Shown here: one piece after another, positions 3,765 through 16,094 of the stretch
How the letters are laid out: each line of letters opens with the position of its first letter
How positions within the stretch are numbered: position 1 is the first letter of the stretch
Source: Pseudomonadota bacterium
Lineage (GTDB): Bacteria > Pseudomonadota > Alphaproteobacteria > Rhodobacterales > Rhodobacteraceae
Length of the DNA stretch: 64,000 nt
Direction: 5' to 3'
NCBI GenBank assembly: GCA_963205075.1
Contig: CAUJIU010000053.1
Coordinates: 1 to 64,000 of the forward strand
Made by a program: the position numbers and the translations under genes
The notes under the pieces: model-generated
What the model was told of the DNA's origin: nothing
Database searches by the model: none
What the model saw: only the letters and a program-made list of their open reading frames with translations

Positions 3765-4883
3765 TCAGTCGCGTGGCGTGACCCGGCGGCGCAGGTCGGC
3801 GATCACTTCGCCCATGGCGTCGCCGTGCCGCAGCAGGCTGCCGCCCAAGAGGAACATGGTGTCCGGACCGTACATCGCCACCATCTCGTCGGCCCGCTCC
3901 GGCGTCATGCCGCCGCCCGGGCCGGGCATCATCGGCGGGCCGATCCCGCCTGGATCCTGACAGGCACGGGCGATCTCGGTGCATTCCTGCGCGGAAAACC
4001 CGAACCGCCCGCCCACATTGGGAAATACCGAGATGTCGGCCCCGGCGAGCCGTTGCAGGGTGCCGAACATCATCGCATGGGTAAACCCGGTATCGCCTGA
4101 CAGCACATAGGGGCCCAGAAAGCTGGGATGGGTCATGATCGGCAGGCCGAGCGTCTTGTCCCGCGCCAGCCGGTTGACCAGATCGAAGCCGAACAGCCCC
4201 GGCATCACCAAAAGCCCGTCCACCCCCGCCGCCCTGGCATGGGCCGCGTGGCCGTCAAGGTCGGCCGAATGTCCGGCCAGTCCGGCGAAGTAGAGGCAGG
4301 CATTGCCGGTTTCGGCATTGGCGCGCGCCACGGCGGCGGTGATCCGGTCCACCCGCTCGCGGAACGGCGCGCAGGGCTGGTCGCTCAGCCCGTGATCTTC
4401 CTTGACGATATGGGCGCCGCTCCGGGCGCAAATATAGGCGATCTCGGCCAGACGTTCGGCGCTGGAGCCCTGGGGTTTCAGGACCGGCGCGATCAGCGGC
4501 CCGGCGGGCGTGCGCGCCAGACGGCGCAGCCCGGCAATGCCGAAGCGTGGGCCGGCAAACACCTCTGCCAGCGGTCCAAGCTCAAGGCCGGTGACCTTGA
4601 TCCCCTTCTGGATGCTCGAATTGCCGAAGATCACGTTCAGCAATTGCGGCAGTTCGGCGCCACAGCTTTCCGGCGAATAGCTGATGGTCGCGCGAAAGCA
4701 CCCCTCGCCCTCGCGGCCCAGATCCTCGACCCGGCCCAGGATGACATCCTCGATGAAGCCGCGCGGAACCACCTCGCGCGGGATCTCGACCGTCTGTTCC
4801 AGCGCGATGCCCTGCGCCCGCAGCATGGCCGCCGCGCGGTCCGGCGCGAAGATGCGGTAGGTGACGCGGAAGCGGTCGGTCAT
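3765..4883 (-). CDS. RuBisCO-like protein (form IV RLP)
   Basis: A 372-residue RuBisCO superfamily protein, shorter than true large subunits (about 460-475). The barrel contains LKPQG (Lys136), matching the first active-site lysine region, and IVKEDHGL (Lys161, Asp163), matching the carbamylated-lysine loop. The Glu of the usual K-D-D-E is His164, the second lysine of KPK is Gln, and the loop-6 region reads GGRFGFS with no lysine. It is therefore not a CO2-fixing enzyme. Known RLPs are enolases, isomerases (methylthioribulose-1-phosphate) or decarboxylases (3-oxo-isoapionate-4-phosphate, OiaX). It directly follows the transketolase subunit genes (stop-to-start overlap 4880-4883) and is the last gene of that operon. 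Neighbouring MtnK and MtnA homologues suggest a 5-modified pentulose phosphate as substrate; this is inference. Confidence 0.88.
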   Translation of the reverse strand: MTDRFRVTYRIFAPDRAAAMLRAQGIALEQTVEIPREVVPRGFIEDVILGRVEDLGREGEGCFRATISYSPESCGAELPQLLNVIFGNSSIQKGIKVTGLELGPLAEVFAGPRFGIAGLRRLARTPAGPLIAPVLKPQGSSAERLAEIAYICARSGAHIVKEDHGLSDQPCAPFRERVDRITAAVARANAETGNACLYFAGLAGHSADLDGHAAHARAAGVDGLLVMPGLFGFDLVNRLARDKTLGLPIMTHPSFLGPYVLSGDTGFTHAMMFGTLQRLAGADISVFPNVGGRFGFSAQECTEIARACQDPGGIGPPMMPGPGGGMTPERADEMVAMYGPDTMFLLGGSLLRHGDAMGEVIADLRRRVTPRD

Positions 4884-5884
4884 AGCCCCTCGGCCTTGGC
4901 GGCGGAATGCACCGCCTCGATCCGCGCGGCGGACAGGTCCGCTTCGGAAATGCCGAATTCGGCGCCCAGCAGCCGCTCGACCCCGCGCACCAGCGCCATG
5001 GCGTCCAGACCGTAGTATTTCATCAGGTAGGGCCGCGAGCCGCCATGGGCATAGCTGTCCTTCAGCCCCAGCCTGATCAGCCGCTTGCCGACCCCGGCAT
5101 CGGCCATGATCTCGGCCAGCAGCGACCCGATCCCGCCTTCGGTGACGTGGTTTTCCAGCGTCACCACCCCGGCGCGCACCGACTGGACATGGTCCAGCAT
5201 CGCCGCCGCATCGAACGGCTTGATGGTGTTCAGATGCAGGTGGCGGACCGACACGCCGGCCGCCTCAAGGGCGGTCCGCGCACGCAGGGCCTCTTCGGTG
5301 GTGATGCCCGAGGTCACGATCAGCACATCCTCGCCCAGCGCCAGTTCGCGCATCTGCCCGACCACGATCGGCGTGTGGAACAGCCGCGGCACCGAGCCGC
5401 GCAGCACCCGGGAATAGACCGGGCCGTCGATGCTGTCGGCGGCCTCGCAGATGCTTTCGACCTCGGTGGCGTCGCCGGTCTCGAGGATCGTCATGTTCGG
5501 GATTGACCGCATCACCGCGATGTCCTCGATCGCCTGATGGGTCATGCCACCCGGCGTGGTGATGCCCGGCAGGAACCCCATCAGCCGCACCTTGCGGCGC
5601 GGATAGGCGATGGAGGCCATCAGCTGGTCATAGGGCCGCCGGTAGAGGAACACGCCAAAGCTGTGCACGAAGGGCCGATACCCCGCCAGCCCCAGGCCGC
5701 CGGCGAAGGACAGCATGTTCTGTTCGGCCATGCCCAGGCTGAGGAACTGGTCGGGGTGCTGGTCGCGGAACTTGTCGATCTCGCACGAACTGGTGAGGTC
5801 GGCGGACAGGCAGAGCACATCGGGATTGGCGAGCGCATGTTTCTCGAAAGCCCGTTCGTAGGGGCGGTTGACCATTTCGACCAT
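4880..5884 (-). CDS. Transketolase, C-terminal subunit (split enzyme)
   Basis: 334 residues carrying the pyrimidine-binding and C-terminal domains of a thiamine-diphosphate transketolase. The catalytic glutamate lies in SLGMAEQN (Glu54), which activates the cofactor aminopyrimidine. The substrate-binding His is in GGMTHQAIED. Start ATG at 5884 has a GGAGG site just upstream, overlapping the end region of the partner gene (stop at 5896). It is encoded immediately after the N-terminal subunit and before the RLP gene. Two-subunit transketolases of this kind are known for unusual sugars (apulose-4-phosphate, sulfofructose). The exact donor sugar here is not known. Confidence 0.9.
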   Translation of the reverse strand: MVEMVNRPYERAFEKHALANPDVLCLSADLTSSCEIDKFRDQHPDQFLSLGMAEQNMLSFAGGLGLAGYRPFVHSFGVFLYRRPYDQLMASIAYPRRKVRLMGFLPGITTPGGMTHQAIEDIAVMRSIPNMTILETGDATEVESICEAADSIDGPVYSRVLRGSVPRLFHTPIVVGQMRELALGEDVLIVTSGITTEEALRARTALEAAGVSVRHLHLNTIKPFDAAAMLDHVQSVRAGVVTLENHVTEGGIGSLLAEIMADAGVGKRLIRLGLKDSYAHGGSRPYLMKYYGLDAMALVRGVERLLGAEFGISEADLSAARIEAVHSAAKAEGL

Positions 5885-5895
5885 GTCGCGGCCTC

Positions 5896-6831
5896 CTAAT
5901 AGGTCACGGGCGGCACGCCCAGCGATGCGGCGATGTCGCGGTTCATGTCGGCGCGCTCTTTCTCGGACTTGAAGCGCACGTAGTGCAGACGCGGGAACCG
6001 CGCTTCCAGTGCGGGCATGCCCCGGAACGGGCTGGTATTTGCGAGGATGATCAGCGGCTTGCCCGGATGCGGCGTCCTGACCGCCGCGCGCATGGCATCG
6101 AGGTCGTGGCCATCCACCCAGACCGCGACGCCGCCGAAGGCGGTGATCTTTTCGGCGATGTCGCCCACTTCCATCACCGAGTCCATCGCGCCGTCGCATT
6201 GCTGGCGGTTCACGTCCATGATCGCATGAAGGCTGTCGATCCCGTGATGCGACGCGGCGGCGATTGCCTCCCAGGTCTGGCCCTCCTGCACCTCGCCGTC
6301 GGACATGTAGACCCAGGTGCGTCCGGTGTCGCCGCGCCGCCTGCGGCCCCAGGCAAGGCCGGCGGCGGTGGAAAACCCGATGCCGAGGGTGCCGTTATGC
6401 ACCTCCATGCCGGGCGAATGTTCGGCGCCGATCATCTCGACGCTGGAGCCGTCCTGGTTGAACATCTCCAGACCCTCGGGCGCCATGCGGCCGACCTCGA
6501 TCAGGGTGGCATAGGCGACCAGCGCATAATGCGCCGGCGCGATGAACAGCCGGTCGAATTGCGGTTCTGCCGGGCCGTTGTAGCCGGCGCCGGTATGATA
6601 GTCGGGATTGGTCGCCGACGGCACGCCGGCGAACGGCTTGGGGATCATCGGCAGCGTCGGCGCGCCCAGGTTCAGCTCTTCGTTATAGAGCCAGGCCAGC
6701 TGCTCGGCGGCCGAGCAGGCCTGGCTGAGATAGCCGCCATTGTTGCGGATCGAATGCTCGAACACCCGGCAGCGGATGCCATGCGCCACCTCCTCGGTGC
6801 TGCGGGCGTTGCGGCGGTCACTGTCGAGCAT
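5896..6831 (-). CDS. Transketolase, N-terminal (diphosphate-binding) subunit
   Basis: 311 residues forming the PP domain of a split transketolase. The thiamine-diphosphate motif reads SDGEVQEG (177-184), with Asn208 in VNRQQ about 30 residues on; the usual first Gly is Ser. The conserved SGHPG of transketolases is replaced by NNGGYL (30-35), so one active-site His is missing. His101 (APAHYAL) and His138 (AEHSPG) are kept. The start at 6831 has an AGGAGG site and is the first gene of a three-gene operon with the C-terminal subunit and the RLP. An inverted repeat 32 bases upstream matches one at the mtnK promoter, suggesting shared control. The altered His suggests a non-standard donor, which is inference. 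Confidence 0.88.
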   Translation of the reverse strand: MLDSDRRNARSTEEVAHGIRCRVFEHSIRNNGGYLSQACSAAEQLAWLYNEELNLGAPTLPMIPKPFAGVPSATNPDYHTGAGYNGPAEPQFDRLFIAPAHYALVAYATLIEVGRMAPEGLEMFNQDGSSVEMIGAEHSPGMEVHNGTLGIGFSTAAGLAWGRRRRGDTGRTWVYMSDGEVQEGQTWEAIAAASHHGIDSLHAIMDVNRQQCDGAMDSVMEVGDIAEKITAFGGVAVWVDGHDLDAMRAAVRTPHPGKPLIILANTSPFRGMPALEARFPRLHYVRFKSEKERADMNRDIAASLGVPPVTY

Positions 6832-6862
6832 GAACTATCCTCCTGCCGAGAGTTTGGCATAA

Positions 6863-6877
6863 GTCAAATACTTTGAC
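6863..6877. promoter_or_regulatory. Putative SorC-family operator ahead of the transketolase-RLP operon
   Basis: Perfect inverted repeat GTCAAA-TAC-TTTGAC, 32 bases upstream of the transketolase start. The surrounding AAGTCAA-N5-TTGACAATTG (6861-6882) recurs with a 6-base spacer at 10642-10664 in the mtnK/importer divergent region. The SorC-type regulator encoded at 15120-16094 is the natural candidate to bind both. Confidence 0.68.
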
Positions 6878-6898
6878 AATTGTAAAGGATCAAACGGC

Positions 6899-6941
6899 GC
6901 GCCGACGGCGCGGGGGGATGCGGGGGGATTGCGCCCCCCGC
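6899..6941 (-). terminator. Tandem GC-rich hairpins after the sugar importer operon
   Basis: Just past the stop of the binding-protein gene (6950), read on the minus strand, an 8-bp perfect stem (6920-6927 with 6934-6941, 6-base loop) is followed by a 5-bp stem (6899-6903 with 6907-6911). The second stem is followed by GTTTG only, so a long T tract is lacking. They probably separate the importer transcript from the transketolase-RLP promoter. Confidence 0.55.
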
Positions 6942-6949
6942 AAGTCGTA

Positions 6950-8005
6950 TCAGTTGCGCGCCGGCAGCGGCATCCAGTCGGGAACGGCCACATCGGCATG
7001 GGCGAACTGCGGCATTTTCGCCGACAGGGTTTCCATGTTGGTGATGTCATTGTCGTTCAGGAACGCCTGGGTGATCAGGGTCGGCGGCACGATGACCGAC
7101 GCCCCCGGATCCTCGCCCGCCAGCAACATCGCCAGCGCGCGCACGCTCACCTCGCCGACCACGGCGGGGTTGGTGGCCACGGTCGCGGCCCATGCGCTGT
7201 CCGGTTCGCGCATGGCCGAGATGTCGGCGGTCGACACGTCGGCGGAGTAGATGTCGATGTCCTGGCTCAGCCCGGCCTCGTCCACGGCAATCTTCACGCC
7301 CTTGGCGAATTCGTCATAGGGGGCAAAAATGACCGTGATGTTCGGGTTGGCCTGCAGGACCGAGCGGGCCTGGTTGGCGACCGAGTTGGCGATCGGGTTG
7401 TCGAGAGTTCCGAACACCGCCACTTCCTCGATGCCGGGGTTTTCGGCGCGCACGTCCTGCCAGGCCTGGTCGCGACGATCCAGCGGCGCGATGCCGGGCA
7501 CGTAGACATAGCCCGCCGCCCAGGTGTCGCCGTTGTCGGCAATCGCCTGCTCCAGCGCCAGTTTGCCCAGCAGGTAGTCCGACTGCTCGATCTGCGGAAT
7601 TGCCGGGTTCTCGACGTTCACGTCAAAGGCCACGACCTTGATCCCGGCATCGATGGCGCGCTGGGCGGCCTCTTGCATGGATTCGGTCAGCCCGTGCTGG
7701 ATGATGATGCCGTCCACGCCCAGGGCAATGGCCTGATCGACCATGTCGGCCTGAAGGGCGGCATCCTGCCGGCTGTCGAACACCCGCAGATCGACACCAA
7801 GTGCCGCCGCCTGCGCCTCGACACCGGCCAGAGAGGCCTGGAAGAAGTCGCCGGTGGACAGGTAGCGCACCAGCGCGATCTGCACCTCGCCGGGATTGTC
7901 GAACGGGGCGGGCATGTCCGCCGCCAGCGCCGCGCTGGTCAGCGCGGTGCCCGAAAGCAGCGCCGCCCCCGCCAGTTTGATGATTTCGCGTCGAAATAGT
8001 TTCAT
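6950..8005 (-). CDS. Sugar ABC transporter periplasmic binding protein (RbsB/RhaS type)
   Basis: 351-residue type I periplasmic binding protein of the ribose/AI-2/rhamnose class. It starts MKLFRREIIKLAG at the ATG at 8005, which has GGGAGG upstream, and has a signal peptide ending near ALAAD (about residue 29). The two-lobe fold is visible from repeated Rossmann-like segments (VQIALVRYLSTGDF; GVDGIIIQHG; IKVVAFDV). It is the last gene of the importer operon 10598-6950 (ATPase, permease, binding protein). Given the adjacent kinase and isomerase, the ligand is probably a free 5-modified ribose such as 5-methylthioribose or 5-deoxyribose (inference). Confidence 0.9.
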   Translation of the reverse strand: MKLFRREIIKLAGAALLSGTALTSAALAADMPAPFDNPGEVQIALVRYLSTGDFFQASLAGVEAQAAALGVDLRVFDSRQDAALQADMVDQAIALGVDGIIIQHGLTESMQEAAQRAIDAGIKVVAFDVNVENPAIPQIEQSDYLLGKLALEQAIADNGDTWAAGYVYVPGIAPLDRRDQAWQDVRAENPGIEEVAVFGTLDNPIANSVANQARSVLQANPNITVIFAPYDEFAKGVKIAVDEAGLSQDIDIYSADVSTADISAMREPDSAWAATVATNPAVVGEVSVRALAMLLAGEDPGASVIVPPTLITQAFLNDNDITNMETLSAKMPQFAHADVAVPDWMPLPARN

Positions 8006-8045
8006 GGTTATCCTCCCATATGTAGCAAAATGCGGTTGCCCGCGG

Positions 8046-9068
8046 TCAATGCCCTCCGCCGCGCTTGCGCGAGGAAAGAGCGAAGGTGAAGACAAGAGCG
8101 ACCACCAGCACGGCGCCCTTGACGAAATCCTGCGTGTAATAGGGTGCGTTCATCATCGTCAGCCCCTGCAGGAGGACGCCGACAAACAGCGCTCCGATGG
8201 CGGTGCCGAAGGCGTTGGGCTTGGCCGCGCCCAGCACCGCAAAGCCGATCAGCGCGGCGGCCACACTGTCCAGAAGCAGGTTGTTGCCGCTGGCGATATC
8301 GCCGCGTCCCAGCCGCGCCGCCAGCAAAATGCCCCCGACCGAGGCAAGCACGCCCGAGATCATGTAGGCCAGGATCTTGTAGCGGTTGACATTGGTCCCC
8401 GCCAGCCTGGCCGCCCGCTCGTTGGAGCCGATCGCATACATCAGCCGCCCGTGGCGCGTCAGTTCCAGAAACACCCAGACCAGCAGCCCGACGATCAGGA
8501 ACACCACGACCGGCACCGGAATGAGATCGTCCAGCACCAGATCGAACCGATGCCGCCCCAGCCACAGGAAGCCCGCCGAGAAGGTTCCCTCGGTGGTCGA
8601 GCCGTCGGGCATGGTCATCCCGGTCGAGATCGACCGGCCCTCGGTCGGGATCCGTTGCAGGCCCACCAGCAGGAACATCATGCCCAGCGTCGCCAGCAGG
8701 TCGGGCACCTTCATCTTGACGATCAGAAGCCCGTTCACCAGCCCGACCAGCGCCCCCATGGCCAGACAGGCAACCACCGCGACGAAGGCGGATTGCTCCA
8801 TCACCACCATCACATAGGCCGACAGCATCAGCGCCGAGGTGGCCACCGACCCGATCGACAGGTCGAACCCGCCCACCACCAGCGTCGCCGTCACCCCCAA
8901 TGCCAGGATGCCGGTGATCGCCACCGACTGGAACACGAACACCGCCGAGCGCGCCCCGGCAAAGCCGCTGGCGGCGATGCTGAAGAAGACCACCAACCCC
9001 AGCAGCAGGATCAGGAAACCGAAGCGAATGGCAAAACGAAGGAGCGGTTGGTCTTGGACGGATTTCAT
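8046..9068 (-). CDS. Sugar ABC transporter permease (RbsC type)
   Basis: 340-residue inner-membrane permease of the BPD_transp_2 family with about eight to ten hydrophobic helices. The EAA-like region GSNERAARLAGTNVNRYKILAYMISG is characteristic of RbsC-type subunits. Start is the ATG at 9068; a TTG one codon earlier is possible. Three bases separate it from the ATPase stop. It forms the channel with the ATPase at 9072-10598 and the binding protein at 6950-8005. Confidence 0.92.
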   Translation of the reverse strand: MKSVQDQPLLRFAIRFGFLILLLGLVVFFSIAASGFAGARSAVFVFQSVAITGILALGVTATLVVGGFDLSIGSVATSALMLSAYVMVVMEQSAFVAVVACLAMGALVGLVNGLLIVKMKVPDLLATLGMMFLLVGLQRIPTEGRSISTGMTMPDGSTTEGTFSAGFLWLGRHRFDLVLDDLIPVPVVVFLIVGLLVWVFLELTRHGRLMYAIGSNERAARLAGTNVNRYKILAYMISGVLASVGGILLAARLGRGDIASGNNLLLDSVAAALIGFAVLGAAKPNAFGTAIGALFVGVLLQGLTMMNAPYYTQDFVKGAVLVVALVFTFALSSRKRGGGH

Positions 9069-9071
9069 CAA

Positions 9072-10598
9072 TCAAGCCTGCATGTGGTGGGTGGTCTGTT
9101 CTTGCGCCGTCAGGCCGGATACCTCTGCCAGCATCCGGTTCAGATCGACGTTTTCATTGCGGTGCTCGCCGACCAGCGCCTGCTCGTTCAGCACCAGGAT
9201 GCGGTCGGCGATTTCCAGCGCCTCGTCCAGTTCGGCGGCGAAAACGATGGTGGCCCGGTCCGCCGCCGTTTCGCGGATCCGGTGGCCGATATCGCGGCGG
9301 GCGCGAATGTCGACGCCCTGAAACGGCTCGTCCAGCACCAGCACCTGCGATGGTTCGGCCAGCCAGCGGCCGACCATCACCTTCTGCTGGTTGCCGCCCG
9401 ACAGGGTGCCGATGGCATCATCTGGCCCCTGGCAGACGATGCCCAGCAGCTCGATCATGGCGCCGGTCCTGGCCCGCTCACTGCGACCCGACAGGAACGA
9501 CAGCCGCGAATGGCGCCGGGTGAAGGGCAGGGTCAGGTTGCCGGAGATATCGAATTCGGGGATCACGCCGTTGCTGGCCCGGTCCTTGGCGCACAGAAAC
9601 ACCCCCGCCCGGATCGCTTCGCGCGGGGTGCGCGGCGCGTAGGGCGCGCCGTTCAGCGTCATGGCGCCGCCCGCGGCCGGTTGCATCCCGAACAGCACCG
9701 AGGCCAGCGCCGTCTTGCCGCTGCCAAGCAGCCCGGTGATCGCCACCACCTCGTTGCGATGCACCGTCAGGTCGATCGGCCGGCCGGTGGCCGACAGGCG
9801 CAGCCCGTTCAGTGCCAGCACGGGCGCCCCGACCGGCGGAATGGTGATGTCGGCCGCCGTCAGCCCATGGCCCAGCATGGCCGTGACCGCCCCCTCGTAA
9901 TCCAGCGTCGGGCCTTCGAACAGGCCGGCGATCTGGCCGTCGCGCATCGCCACGATGCGGTCGGCGATGCGCCGGATATCCGACATCCGGTGCGAGATAT
10001 ACAGGATCGCCACCCCTTGCCCGCGCAGCCGTTCCAGGAGCGCAAACAGCCGCTCGGCTTCGGTGGCCGACAGCGACGAGGTCGGTTCGTCCAGGATCAG
10101 CACCCGGGCGTCGCGGGCCATGGCGCGGGCGATGGCGATCAGCTGCCGCTCGGCCACGCCGAGGTCGCCCACCGTCGCGCGCACGTCGAGGTCAAGCGAC
10201 ATCGCGTCCGCGATTTCCTGCGCCCCGGCCCGCATCGCCCGCGACCGCACGAAGAAGCCCGACCCGGGCTGGGTCAGGCGGTCCAGCATCAGGTTCGAGG
10301 CGACATCGAGATCGGGGATCACCCCGTCGTTGATCGACTGGTGCACGGTGACCACACCGGCGGCAATGGCCTCGGAGGGCGTGGCCGGCGCATAGGGCTG
10401 GCCGAACAGCTCGATCCGCCCCGCATCGGCCCGGTGCACGCCGCACAGGATCTTGACCAGCGTCGACTTGCCCGCGCCGTTGGCGCCCATCAGGACGGTG
10501 ATCTGCCCCGAGGCAATCTCGAGGTCGATCCCGCGCAGGACCTTGTTCGGCCCGAACGCCTTTTCGATCCCCGACAGGCGGCATGCTGTGGCTGACAT
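9072..10598 (-). CDS. Sugar ABC transporter ATPase, double-domain (RbsA type)
   Basis: 508 residues with two ABC domains in tandem, as in RbsA. Domain one has Walker A GANGAGKST and Walker B LILDEPTSS; its signature region reads GVAERQ in place of LSGGQ. Domain two has Walker A GSGKT in GLLGSGKTALA, signature LSGGNQQK and Walker B VLVLDEPFQGVD. The start is the ATG at 10598 (MSATACRLSG), preceded by GGGGGAGG. It is the first gene of the importer operon and diverges from mtnK across 114 bases that hold a predicted operator and a minus-strand promoter. Confidence 0.94.
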   Translation of the reverse strand: MSATACRLSGIEKAFGPNKVLRGIDLEIASGQITVLMGANGAGKSTLVKILCGVHRADAGRIELFGQPYAPATPSEAIAAGVVTVHQSINDGVIPDLDVASNLMLDRLTQPGSGFFVRSRAMRAGAQEIADAMSLDLDVRATVGDLGVAERQLIAIARAMARDARVLILDEPTSSLSATEAERLFALLERLRGQGVAILYISHRMSDIRRIADRIVAMRDGQIAGLFEGPTLDYEGAVTAMLGHGLTAADITIPPVGAPVLALNGLRLSATGRPIDLTVHRNEVVAITGLLGSGKTALASVLFGMQPAAGGAMTLNGAPYAPRTPREAIRAGVFLCAKDRASNGVIPEFDISGNLTLPFTRRHSRLSFLSGRSERARTGAMIELLGIVCQGPDDAIGTLSGGNQQKVMVGRWLAEPSQVLVLDEPFQGVDIRARRDIGHRIRETAADRATIVFAAELDEALEIADRILVLNEQALVGEHRNENVDLNRMLAEVSGLTAQEQTTHHMQA

Positions 10599-10620
10599 CC
10601 GATCCTCCCCCAACGACCCG

Positions 10621-10648
10621 ATGTTATGGGCGTGCCGACAAAAGTCAA
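10621..10648 (-). promoter_or_regulatory. Predicted promoter of the sugar importer operon
   Basis: On the minus strand TTGACT (10648-10643) and TAACAT (10626-10621) are separated by 16 bases, a plausible sigma-70 promoter 23 bases ahead of the ATPase start. The -35 element lies inside the inverted repeat at 10644-10659, so a bound repressor would block it. Confidence 0.5.
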
Positions 10649-10659
10649 CAGCTCTTGAC
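10644..10659. promoter_or_regulatory. Putative SorC-family operator in the divergent mtnK/importer region
   Basis: Inverted repeat GTCAA-CAGCTC-TTGAC, embedded in AAGTCAA-N6-TTGACAATTG (10642-10664). It matches the repeat at 6861-6882 apart from the spacer. It lies between the importer ATPase start (10598) and the mtnK start (10713), so it could control both directions. Confidence 0.68.
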
Positions 10660-10712
10660 AATTGGCAATGACCGGGCAGACTTTGAACGAAAGCGACAAG
10701 GGGGGAGTTTCG

Positions 10713-11968
10713 ATGGAGGTGAGTGCTGACGGCTATGCGCCGCTGAGCGTGGAAACACTCGGCGCCCGGCTTGGCGGCTTGCCGGACGTGGCCGACCGGA
10801 TCGGCGGAACACCGTCCGAATGGCAGGTGCGCGAGGTCGGCGACGGCAACCTGAACCTGGTGTTCGTGGTCCGGGGACCGGCTGGCACGGTGATCGTCAA
10901 GCAGGCTTTGCCCTATGTCAGGCTGGTCGGAGACAGCTGGCCCCTGCCGCTGAAACGGGCGTTCTTCGAATATCACGCGCTGACCCGTCAGGCCGCGCGC
11001 GACCCCGGCCGGGTGCCGCAGATCTACCATTTCGACGCGGTGCAGGCGCTGATCGTGATGGAGTTCCTCTCACCCCACACCATCCTGCGCGGCAAGCTGA
11101 TCGCCGGCGACCACGTCGCGGGCCTGGGCGAGGCCCTGGGGCGGTTTGTCGCACGCACGGCATTTCGCGGTTCCGATCTGTCGATGCCCACCGCCACGCG
11201 CAAGGCCGATGCCGCGCTGTTTCTGGGCAATGTCGAACTGTGCGACATCACCGAGGGGCTGGTGTTCACCGATCCCTATCACGACGCCCCGCGCAACCAC
11301 CACACGCCCGAACTGGCGCCGGTCGTGGCCGCCCTGCGCGGCGACGTGGCGATGAAGGTTCAGGTCCAGCACATGCTGGCGCGATTTGCCTCCAACGCCG
11401 AAACCATGCTGCACGGCGACCTGCATACCGGCTCGGTCATGTGCACCGGCAGCGAAACCAGGGTCATCGACCCGGAATTCGCCTTCTACGGCCCGATGGG
11501 GTTCGATCTGGGGATGCTGATCGCCAATTTCCTGATGGCGTTCTTCAGCCAGCCCGCGCATCGCAAGCCCGGCGAGGTCGACGCCTACCAGACATGGATC
11601 CTGCAGGTGATCGGAGATCTGTGCGCGGCCTTCGATGCCGAGTTCCGGCATCTGTGGACCACCGAAAGAACCGGCATGCTGTATCCGGCGGCGCTGTTCG
11701 AGGATCAGGGCCACGGCTCGGACGCGGCGCTGAACGACCGGCTGGCGATAATCTGGGACGACGCGATGGGGTTTTGCGGCATCGAGATGCACCGGCGGAT
11801 CCTGTCGCTTGCCCATAATGCCGATTTCGAGAGTATTACCGATACCGGCCTGCGGGCCCGGCTCGAGGCGCGGAGCCTGACCATGGGCCGTGACCTGATC
11901 CTGGATCGCCCCGCCGATCCGGCCACACTGATCGCGCGGGCCCGCGCGACCCACACCAAGGATATCCT

Positions 11969-11972
<4 letters not shown>
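10713..11972 (+). CDS. mtnK: 5-methylthioribose kinase family protein
   Basis: 419-residue choline/aminoglycoside-kinase-fold enzyme of the MtnK family, which phosphorylates the anomeric C1 hydroxyl of 5-methylthioribose with ATP. The family hallmarks are present: [13 protein letters not shown] in the N-lobe, the catalytic loop HGDLHTGS near residue 233, and the metal motif [14 protein letters not shown]. The start is the ATG at 10713 with a strong GGGGGG-AG site (10700-10707). It overlaps mtnA by four bases (ATGA). It begins a plus-strand operon: kinase, isomerase, aldolase-SDR, SorC regulator. Relatives may act on 5-deoxyribose, so substrate is not certain. Confidence 0.9.
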
Positions 11973-13065
<1,093 letters not shown>

Positions 13066-13066
<1 letters not shown>

Positions 13067-15108
13067 TGGCGATGATCGCCAACAGATGGTCCGACGCCGA
13101 GGCGCAGGTCTGGCTCGACAAGGCCGGCAACGATCCGGCAGAACGTGATCTCGCCTTGCGGGTCTATTCCAGCCGGATCATCGGCGGCGACCCCGATCTG
13201 GTCATGCATGGCGGTGGCAATACCTCGGTCAAGGTGCGCCGGCCCGACCTGTTCGGGCGGATGCAGGAGGTGCTGCACGTCAAGGGCTCGGGCTGGGATC
13301 TGGACACCATCCTGGCGCCCGGCCTGCCGGGGGTGCGCCTGGCCCCGCTGCTGGCGCTGCGCGATCTGGGCGCATTGTCGGACGAGGCCATGGTCAACGT
13401 CCAGCGCCAGAACCTGCTGGACAGCTCCGCCCCCAACCCTTCGGTTGAGGCGCTGCTGCACGCCTTCCTGCCGCACAGATACGTGGACCATACCCATGCC
13501 ACGCCGTTCCTGATCCTGGCCAACCTGCCCAATGCGATCGAAGCGGCGCGCGAGATCTTCGGCAACCGGCTGGGCATCGTGCCCTACATCATGCCCGGTT
13601 TCGGTCTGGCCAAGGCGGCCGCCGAAGTCTACGAGGCCGACCCCTCGGTCGAGGGGCTGCTCTTGCTCAATCACGGGCATTTCGCCTTTGGCGACAGCGC
13701 GCGCGCCAGCTACGACCTGATCGTCAAGCACACCAACGAGGTGGCGGAGTATCTCGGCCTGTCGGTGCCGACACCGCTGAAACAGCGCCAGCCGACCCTG
13801 GCCGCGTCGATCCTGCCGACCCTGCGCGGGGTCTTGGGCGACATGAGCGGCGACCGTGACGCCGCCATGCCGGTGTTCGACCTGCGCAACGGGCCGCAGG
13901 TGATGGCGTTCCTGGACCGGCCCGACCTGGCCGATCTTGCCACCCGCGGCACCGCCTCGCCGGATCACGTGATCCGCATCAAGCCGGCGCCGCTGGTACT
14001 GACCGCCGCCGATCTGGCGGCCGGTCGCGCGGGCATCGCCGCCGCGGCCGCGGCCTTCGCCGACAACTATCGCAGCTATTTCGACCGCCAGAACGCGCGT
14101 GTCGGCGGGATCAAGACCATGCTGCCGACCACGCCCGCGCTGGCCTGGGTCGCGGGCCTGGGGCTGATCGGCATCGGCGCCACGGCCGGCGGCGCCAGCA
14201 TCGCCGCCGATATCGGCGAACAGAACATCGCGGTGCGCGCCACGGGCGAGGATGCGGGCGGGTTCCGGCCCATCGGACCCGACGATCTGTTCGATCTGGA
14301 ATACTGGTCGCTCGAACAGGCCAAGCTGGGCAAGGGCAAGGCCGCCGCGATGCAGGGCCGGATCGTCATGGTGACCGGCGGGGCCGGGGCGATCGGGCTG
14401 GCCACCGCGCGGGCCTTTGCCGGGCAGGGCGCGCAGGTGATGCTGGTGGACCGCGACCGCGCCGCGCTCGACCGGGCGCTGGCCCAGCTTGGTGCCGGCC
14501 ATGACGCGGCCGTCCTCGACGTGACCGACCCCGATGCCGCCGATGCCGCGATGCGCGCCACGACCGGGCGGTTCGGTGGCCTCGACATTCTGGTGTCCAA
14601 CGCCGGCGCGGCGATGTCGGGCGCGCTGCTCGAACTGCCTGACGCTGACCTGCGCGCGGCGTTCGAGCTGAATTTCTTTTCCCACCAGCGCTTTGCCAGA
14701 TCCGCGGCACGGCTGTTCTGCGACCAGAACCGGGGCGGCCAGATCCTGTTCAACATCTCCAAGCAGGCGGTAAATCCGGGGCGCAACTTCGGCGCCTATG
14801 GCCTGCCCAAGGCGACGACGCTGTTCCTGATGCGGCAACTGGCGCTGGAACTGGGCGAGCACGGCATCCGCGTCAACGGCATCAACGCCGACCGCATCCG
14901 CTCGGGCCTGCTGACCGAGGATTTCATCGCCGAACGTGCCGGGGCGCGGGGCACCGACGCCGCGACCTACATGGCCGGCAACCTGCTGCGCCGCGAGGTC
15001 GAGGCGCGCCATGTCGCGGCGGCTTTCGTCGCACTTGCCGGTTGCGAACGCACGACGGCGCATGTCATGACGGTGGATGGCGGCAACATCGAAGCCGCCC
15101 TGCGATAG
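13066..15108 (+). CDS. Bifunctional class II aldolase / short-chain dehydrogenase
   Basis: 680-residue fusion. Residues 1 to about 400 form a class II aldolase of the fuculose/rhamnulose-phosphate type, with metal ligands in HTHATP (His142, His144) and HGHFAFG (His203) and a HGGGNTS phosphate-binding loop. Residues from about 430 form an SDR domain with the NAD-binding TGGAGAIG (437-444), NAGA and the catalytic YxxxK (Tyr578, Lys582). RhaD-type fusions cleave rhamnulose 1-phosphate to DHAP and lactaldehyde. Here the MtnK/MtnA context predicts cleavage of a 5-modified ribulose 1-phosphate to DHAP and a two-carbon aldehyde, with the SDR acting on the aldehyde. That assignment is inference; rhamnose genes are absent. 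Confidence 0.9.
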
Positions 15109-15119
15109 GAGCGACCACC

Positions 15120-16094
15120 ATAGCTGATCCCCGGCCGCACAAGGAAGGTGTCGATCCGGCGACCGCGCTGGCCCATGCCGCGATGCTCTATTACCGCGAG
15201 GGCCTGACCCAGGGCGCGGTTGCCCGGCGCATGGGCGTGTCGCGCGCGACTATCGTCAACTACCTGCGTCTGGCGCGCGAGATGGGCATCGTCGAGATCC
15301 GGATCCGCGGCGAGAGCTTCGCCGCCTCGTCTCTGGCCCGCCGTCTGGCAGATCGCTATGGCCTCATCGATGCCTATGTCGCCCATGACGACATCACGCC
15401 GCTCGATGCCGGGGCCGCCGCCCTGCGGGTCGCGGGTCTGGCCGCGGCCGCCCTGCTCGACATTCTGGAGCCGGGCGACCGGCTGGGCGTGGCCTGGGGG
15501 CTGACGGTGCAGCATCTGGCGCAGGTGTTTCCGATCAGCACCGTGCGCAACCTGACCGTCTACCAGATGCTGGGGTCGATGTATGCGCATCACCATTTCG
15601 CGGCCGAGACCTGTTCGATCGAGATCGCGCGCAAGACGTCCGCCGAATGCCGCACCCTGCATGCCCCCGCCGTGGTGTCGACGCCCGAGCTGGCCGAAAA
15701 GCTGCGCCGCGAGCCGATCATCGCCCAGCAGATCGCCGAATTCGGCGCTTTGACGCGGGCGGTGTTCTCGGTCGGGGATGTCAGCCCGCAAACCACGCTG
15801 GTCGCCTCCGGTGTGGTGACGGCGGCCGAACTGGCAAAGGCCAAGGCGCGCGGCGCGGTCGCGGTCCTGTGCGGCCATTTCATCGATACCGCCGGGCAGC
15901 CGCTGGCCGGAGACCTGCGTGACCGGATGCTCGGGATCACGCCCGAGGTCCTGCGCGCCATCCCGGCGCGGATGCTGGTGGTCTCGGGCGCGGAAAAGCG
16001 TGCCGCGACGCTGGCGATCCTGACCGGCGGCTATGTCAGCCACCTGGTGCTGGACGAGCCGATGGCGGTCTGGCTGCTGGAACAGGCAGGCTGA
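15120..16094 (+). CDS. SorC/DeoR-type sugar-responsive transcriptional regulator
   Basis: About 324 residues. An N-terminal helix-turn-helix (LYYREGLTQGAVARRMGVSRATIVNYL) is followed by a SorC sugar-phosphate-binding domain resembling NagB folds (GDRLGVAWGLTVQHLA). The start is unusual. A good AGGAG site at 15107-15111 is followed eight bases later by ATA (15120), not ATG. Alternatives are TTG at 15042, overlapping the aldolase gene by 67 bases, or ATG at 15183, which would clip the HTH. ATA is preferred on spacing, but a sequence error in an ATG is possible. As last gene of the kinase-isomerase-aldolase operon it is likely the local regulator, binding the inverted repeats at 6863 and 10644. 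Confidence 0.88.
   Translation: MADPRPHKEGVDPATALAHAAMLYYREGLTQGAVARRMGVSRATIVNYLRLAREMGIVEIRIRGESFAASSLARRLADRYGLIDAYVAHDDITPLDAGAAALRVAGLAAAALLDILEPGDRLGVAWGLTVQHLAQVFPISTVRNLTVYQMLGSMYAHHHFAAETCSIEIARKTSAECRTLHAPAVVSTPELAEKLRREPIIAQQIAEFGALTRAVFSVGDVSPQTTLVASGVVTAAELAKAKARGAVAVLCGHFIDTAGQPLAGDLRDRMLGITPEVLRAIPARMLVVSGAEKRAATLAILTGGYVSHLVLDEPMAVWLLEQAG

Follow-up and report, generated by a model that had tools for sequence, protein, structure and literature searches.

A conserved palindrome as predicted operator of an MtnR-like SorC repressor in a salvage island with a RuBisCO-like protein and a split transketolase

RuBisCO-like proteins (RLPs) of unassigned function are hard to assign. We are interested in one that is encoded, together with a transketolase, near genes of S-methyl-5-thioribose salvage on a Rhodobacteraceae contig. 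Do the RLP and the transketolase share a regulon with the salvage genes, and which protein would control it? Throughout, "the window" is the whole stretch of DNA analyzed, 64,000 nucleotides long.

Two palindromes in the island

The genes of the island can be read as three transcription units. On the minus strand, the ATPase (9072..10598), permease (8046..9071) and substrate-binding protein (6950..8005) of a sugar ABC importer, all recognized by profile matches, form one unit. The next, also on the minus strand, consists of tktN (5896..6831; N-terminal part of a transketolase, thiamine diphosphate domain), tktC (4880..5899; C-terminal part, pyrimidine-binding and C-terminal domains) and the RLP gene (3765..4883); tktN starts at ATG 6831 with the Shine-Dalgarno sequence AGGAGG. 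On the plus strand follow mtnK (10713..11972; S-methyl-5-thioribose kinase, 466 bits, cut-off 275), mtnA (11969..13066; S-methyl-5-thioribose-1-phosphate isomerase, 408 bits, cut-off 279), a bifunctional gene (13066..15108) in which domain matches show a class II aldolase fused to a short-chain dehydrogenase, and a SorC-family regulator gene (15117..16094; with an uncertain start codon in a frame that is open from 15042). The SorC protein has a DeoR-type helix-turn-helix (residues 20-62) and a SorC sugar-binding domain (PF04198, 181 bits, cut-off 27), and is the sole regulator inside the island. The RLP reaches the cut-off of no named RLP model (MtnW, NF007095: 169.8 bits against 409; OiaX: 55 against 700). 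None of mtnB, mtnX and mtnD is among the island genes examined. An earlier reading made from the sequence only had called the genes correctly in outline; its transketolase is two open reading frames, followed by the RLP gene.

Upstream of the minus-strand tktN-tktC-RLP unit, with the 3' end of the binding-protein gene on its other side, lies site A (6858..6882; CATAAGTCAA-atact-TTGACAATTG, spacer 5 bp), approximately 26 nucleotides before the tktN ATG. Site B (10639..10664; CAAAAGTCAA-cagctc-TTGACAATTG, spacer 6 bp) is flanked by the importer ATPase gene (ATG 10598, minus strand) and mtnK (ATG 10713, plus strand). Both are predicted operators, with no strand assigned. The conserved unit is a palindrome of 10+10 bp, CAWWWGTCAA-N5/6-TTGACWWWTG. 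The sequence-only reading had placed the two repeats at 6861-6882 and 10642-10664, with identical arms and spacers differing by one base. AAGTCAA-N3..9-TTGACAATTG does match the window at these two places and nowhere else, and has 0 matches in 100 dinucleotide shuffles of it. The spacer difference is as described; the quoted arms of 7 and 10 nucleotides are too short, and the full 10-nucleotide left arms of A and B differ at one base. Far from being common genome-wide, the motif occurs in two places only: in pattern searches of the available genome (2.92 Mb in 192 contigs, 88% complete, so that a third site could fall in the remainder), sites A and B are the sole matches both to GTCAA-N4..7-TTGACAATTG (reversed-pattern control: 0) and, on both strands, to GTCAA-N5..6-TTGACWWWTG.

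How do the sites lie with respect to promoters? At site B, a sigma-70 scan gives one promoter-like match for the importer, TTGACT-N16-TAACAT, whose -35 hexamer is the left arm; the right arm has the position expected of an mtnK -35 box. Weak -10-like sequences occur 16-17 bp beyond the arms, on both sides, in many of the related loci described below. With its arms at both -35 positions, an occupied palindrome B would therefore block both promoters. Around site A, generic sigma-70 and terminator scans detect no promoter and no T-run terminator. An untranslated leader would not fit between the ATG and the arm of site A if that arm served as a -35 box; operator A therefore probably overlaps a promoter situated slightly upstream. 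Between the importer 3' end and site A is a GC hairpin (TGCGGGGGG-N6-CCCCCCGCA, 6919..6942, no strand assigned), which lacks a T-run and is at most a possible transcript boundary.

The palindrome in related loci

Relatives of the island were fetched via the SorC protein and the RLP, and the island genes were placed in them by tblastn. Divergent importer/mtnK promoters carry the palindrome in 28 of 29 loci. The 56 half-sites give the consensus TTGACWWWTG and do not vary at positions 1-5 and 10; as only TTGA was demanded of a half-site in the search, the invariance of C5 and G10 was not imposed. The spacer is 6 bp in 17 loci and 5 bp in 11. We considered the spacer mismatch between A and B as an argument against a single binding protein and rejected it: because orthologous promoters use both spacers, a difference of one base is no objection.

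A matrix of the half-site, applied to 940 kb of related loci, finds 44 sites with a score of at least 20 (none in shuffles) and 52 with at least 16 (0.4 in shuffles), both counts including the loci from which the matrix was built. Site A scores 34.9 (best of 30 shuffles, -7.5) and site B 34.8. The sites cluster at four places: between importer and mtnK, before tktN, between divergent sorC and aldolase genes, and before sorC or transporter genes in SorC loci that lack mtnK. The divergent sorC/aldolase pairs have a weaker site in 12 of 19 cases, which suggests autoregulation. Eight more loci, fetched by matching the pattern itself and hence not independent evidence, agree in context. Most loci have one palindrome per promoter. 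In locus L067 (8114-8193) tktN is preceded by two operators in tandem at a distance of 54 bp, a spacing that a SorC tetramer could bridge. The tblastn matches to the importer genes of L077 and to mtnK of L102 are split, suggesting frameshifts or assembly errors.

Distant relatives, too, carry the palindrome at the same promoters, so that it is found in rhizobia as well as in Rhodobacterales. Loci of Mariluticola, Shinella, Sinorhizobium and Pararhizobium, picked by mtnK alone, have a perfect 10+10 palindrome before mtnK (4/4), and each has a SorC gene, whose frame is interrupted in the record for Sinorhizobium. The genes mtnK-mtnA-tktN-tktC-RLP follow each other on one strand in three of these four rhizobial/devosial loci. 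These operons show, the motif aside, that mtnK and mtnA are accompanied by the transketolase and RLP genes. In Halomonas, an mtnK locus without a nearby SorC gene has no site.

When does the transketolase unit have a site of its own? Where the transketolase is separate from the importer, a site scoring at least 14.8 is present within 200 bp upstream in 10 of 14 loci. Directly behind the importer (11 loci), the window alone has one; at a distance of 575-609 bp behind it, no locus does (0/5). Apart from the window, in-line or spaced units are thus without a site (0/15), and all of these counts depend on where the tblastn matches begin. The site is usually present at separate units and mostly absent from in-line ones, and therefore goes with units that need a switch of their own. 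In the window, an in-line unit does have a site, of full strength and preceded by a GC hairpin. This is a lineage feature, which L007 and L008, the window's nearest relatives, do not share. An RbsD/FucU-like gene, identified by eye, fills both of the importer-transketolase gaps that were read (L039, 16167-16610; L084, 7769-8212); these genes are sugar mutarotase-like.

We also asked whether the motif follows the SorC gene. Among 395 genomes of the family, 59 have a SorC homologue at a threshold of E 1e-40. The two-armed pattern is found in 23 genomes, all of which (23/23) have the homologue, and in none of the 336 genomes without it (Fisher p-value 1.4e-21). The RLP is likewise tied to SorC (23/25, p-value 3e-19). 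Both p-values count genomes as independent and are weakened by their relatedness. Nearly all SorC proteins from motif-bearing loci have the recognition-helix residues SR[AP][TS][IV]VN in common, and SorC relatives in four loci that lack mtnK (L090, L105, L107, L108) adjoin similar sites. A class-wide scan for close SorC homologues at E 1e-75 found none outside the window genome.

A SorC tree led us to reject the idea that all mtnK-linked SorC proteins form one orthologous clade. They fall into more than one; the motif therefore goes with a wider SorC subfamily and not with strict orthologues. The window clade (with L007, L008, L039 and L040) stands apart from most other mtnK-linked SorC proteins, nearer to those of other sugar loci; E. 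coli YjhU is a long branch of unsure placement. Different clades with the same operator might reflect regulator replacement with operator retention. Cross-talk between paralogues is possible. In L107 and L108, on plasmids of Paracoccus seriniphilus and Marinovum algicola, the same split transketolase occurs with a related SorC gene among other sugar genes, namely a molybdopterin oxidoreductase, a kinase, an aldolase and an ABC transporter, without mtnK; similar palindromes stand there before tktN (L107) and before ABC binding-protein genes.

A proposed regulon and its alternatives

We propose, with a probability of roughly 0.88, that palindromes A and B are operators of the island's own SorC regulator, which would repress 5-deoxypentose/methylthioribose salvage in the manner of MtnR. 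As long as inducer is absent, SorC would bind each palindrome via paired helix-turn-helix domains. At site B it would cover the back-to-back -35 boxes of the importer and mtnK-mtnA-aldolase-sorC promoters, and at site A the promoter region of tktN-tktC-RLP; that it would repress rather than activate is taken from E. coli MtnR. A phosphorylated pathway intermediate, the likely effector by analogy with DeoR and CggR (PMC11229326), would release SorC, and the importer, kinase, isomerase, aldolase, transketolase, RLP and the regulator itself would be induced together. The sequence-only reading had called the two repeats direct evidence of co-regulation. Co-regulation is supported by the rarity and conservation of the motif, its co-occurrence with SorC, the sites at separate transketolase-RLP units and the inclusion of these genes in the rhizobial mtnKA operon, but "direct" is too strong a word for binding and regulation that we infer. 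Counting against the proposal are the spread of mtnK-linked SorC proteins over more than one clade, the lack of site A in L007 and L008, and the differences from the B. subtilis DeoR operator described below.

Could the arms be nothing but the back-to-back -35 hexamers (TTGACA) of divergent promoters, read by no regulator? TTGAC is a -35 core, the -10-like sequences lie at promoter distance on both sides in many loci, and the left arm of site B forms part of the promoter-like match. However, conservation extends past the hexamer into WWWTG, with G10 invariant and the spacer fixed at 5-6 bp; site A and several transketolase sites are two-armed although no island gene diverges there; and the presence of the motif tracks the SorC gene. 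We regard this explanation as the least probable of those considered here. Hardly more probable is that the palindromes are operators of some other transcription factor. It would accommodate the separation, in the tree, of the window SorC from most other SorC proteins linked to mtnK, and SorC binding at A and B is itself our inference. Yet SorC is the only regulator in the island, every genome with a two-armed site encodes a homologue, SorC loci that lack mtnK have similar sites, the Halomonas mtnK locus without SorC nearby is also without a site, and E. coli MtnR is a member of the SorC family.

It is somewhat less improbable, but still unlikely, that site B is a true operator and site A an accidental or non-functional copy, the RLP unit being controlled only by read-through from the importer. 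The lack of a transketolase site in the closest relatives, L007 and L008, and in other in-line loci would fit such an accident. Against it, site A matches site B in strength and lies close to an ATG and behind a GC hairpin, and in other loci separate transketolase units have sites in a comparable position. Even with read-through from the importer, the RLP would still be under site B.

If A and B are SorC operators, what would the RLP be doing in such a regulon? We give an even chance to a broader proposal, that 5-deoxypentose/methylthioribose salvage has an as yet undescribed branch, encoded by the island, where the RLP and the split transketolase process the products of MtnK, MtnA and the aldolase, under one MtnR-like SorC repressor, and that the same operator logic would locate the MtnR site of E. 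coli. In the literature searched we found no publication on this regulon or operator, and nothing relevant on an RLP plus transketolase in methylthioribulose metabolism. A repressor operator is an ordinary kind of element; what is revealing is its place, with the RLP and the split transketolase joining the MtnK/MtnA salvage regulon. The common conserved operator ties both to MtnK/MtnA substrates and leads to a short list of candidate inducers and substrates.

Comparison with known systems

Among solved structures, the best match to the window SorC is B. subtilis DeoR (8r7y), which has the same domain architecture, a palindromic operator over the -35 region and a phosphosugar effector (PMC11229326). 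Its half-sites, TTGAA...TTCAA, face the opposite way to those of the island. The DeoR operator consists of a palindrome plus a direct repeat and is bound by a tetramer that needs two half-operators (PMC11229326), an arrangement that CggR shares; in the island one 25-26 bp palindrome is evident per promoter. For the RLP, the nearest named model is MtnW (2,3-diketo-5-methylthiopentyl-1-phosphate enolase); MtnW and OiaX belong to the same RuBisCO-like fold family. We rejected an identification as MtnW on the score given above, the cut-off being that of an equivalog.

A close parallel is the DHAP shunt of E. coli, in which MtnR (YjhU) is the proven repressor of the mtnK-mtnA-ald2 operon; deletion of mtnR raises expression of the operon by approximately 5 log2 units (PMC12632272). 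MtnR and the window SorC are 37% identical over 309 amino acids, and both are SorC-type proteins encoded beside mtnK and mtnA. Island mtnK and mtnA score above the curated cut-offs; the class II aldolase domain, a possible counterpart of Ald2, shares its polypeptide with a short-chain dehydrogenase. RLP, transketolase and a divergent importer are all missing from the E. coli operon, to which CRP control is added. A Proteus YjhU homologue has no mtnK within 8 kb. For the recognition sequence of MtnR, PMC12632272 gives only a guess, CAAATxxxxxxxxxATTTG over P1. In the P1 region our matrix matches best at CATGTGTCAC-aaataat-TTTACATTTG (L140, 15794-15820), 61 bp before the ATG. This match has mismatches and a 7-bp spacer, overlaps the guessed sequence, and was not bettered in 200 shuffles. 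Here, too, a candidate site lies over the regulated promoter. As a prediction only, CATGTGTCAC-N7-TTTACATTTG may be the MtnR site, overlapping sequence that CRP may use. More generally, the palindrome suggests what sequence is recognized by a SorC subfamily to which the newly described E. coli MtnR belongs.
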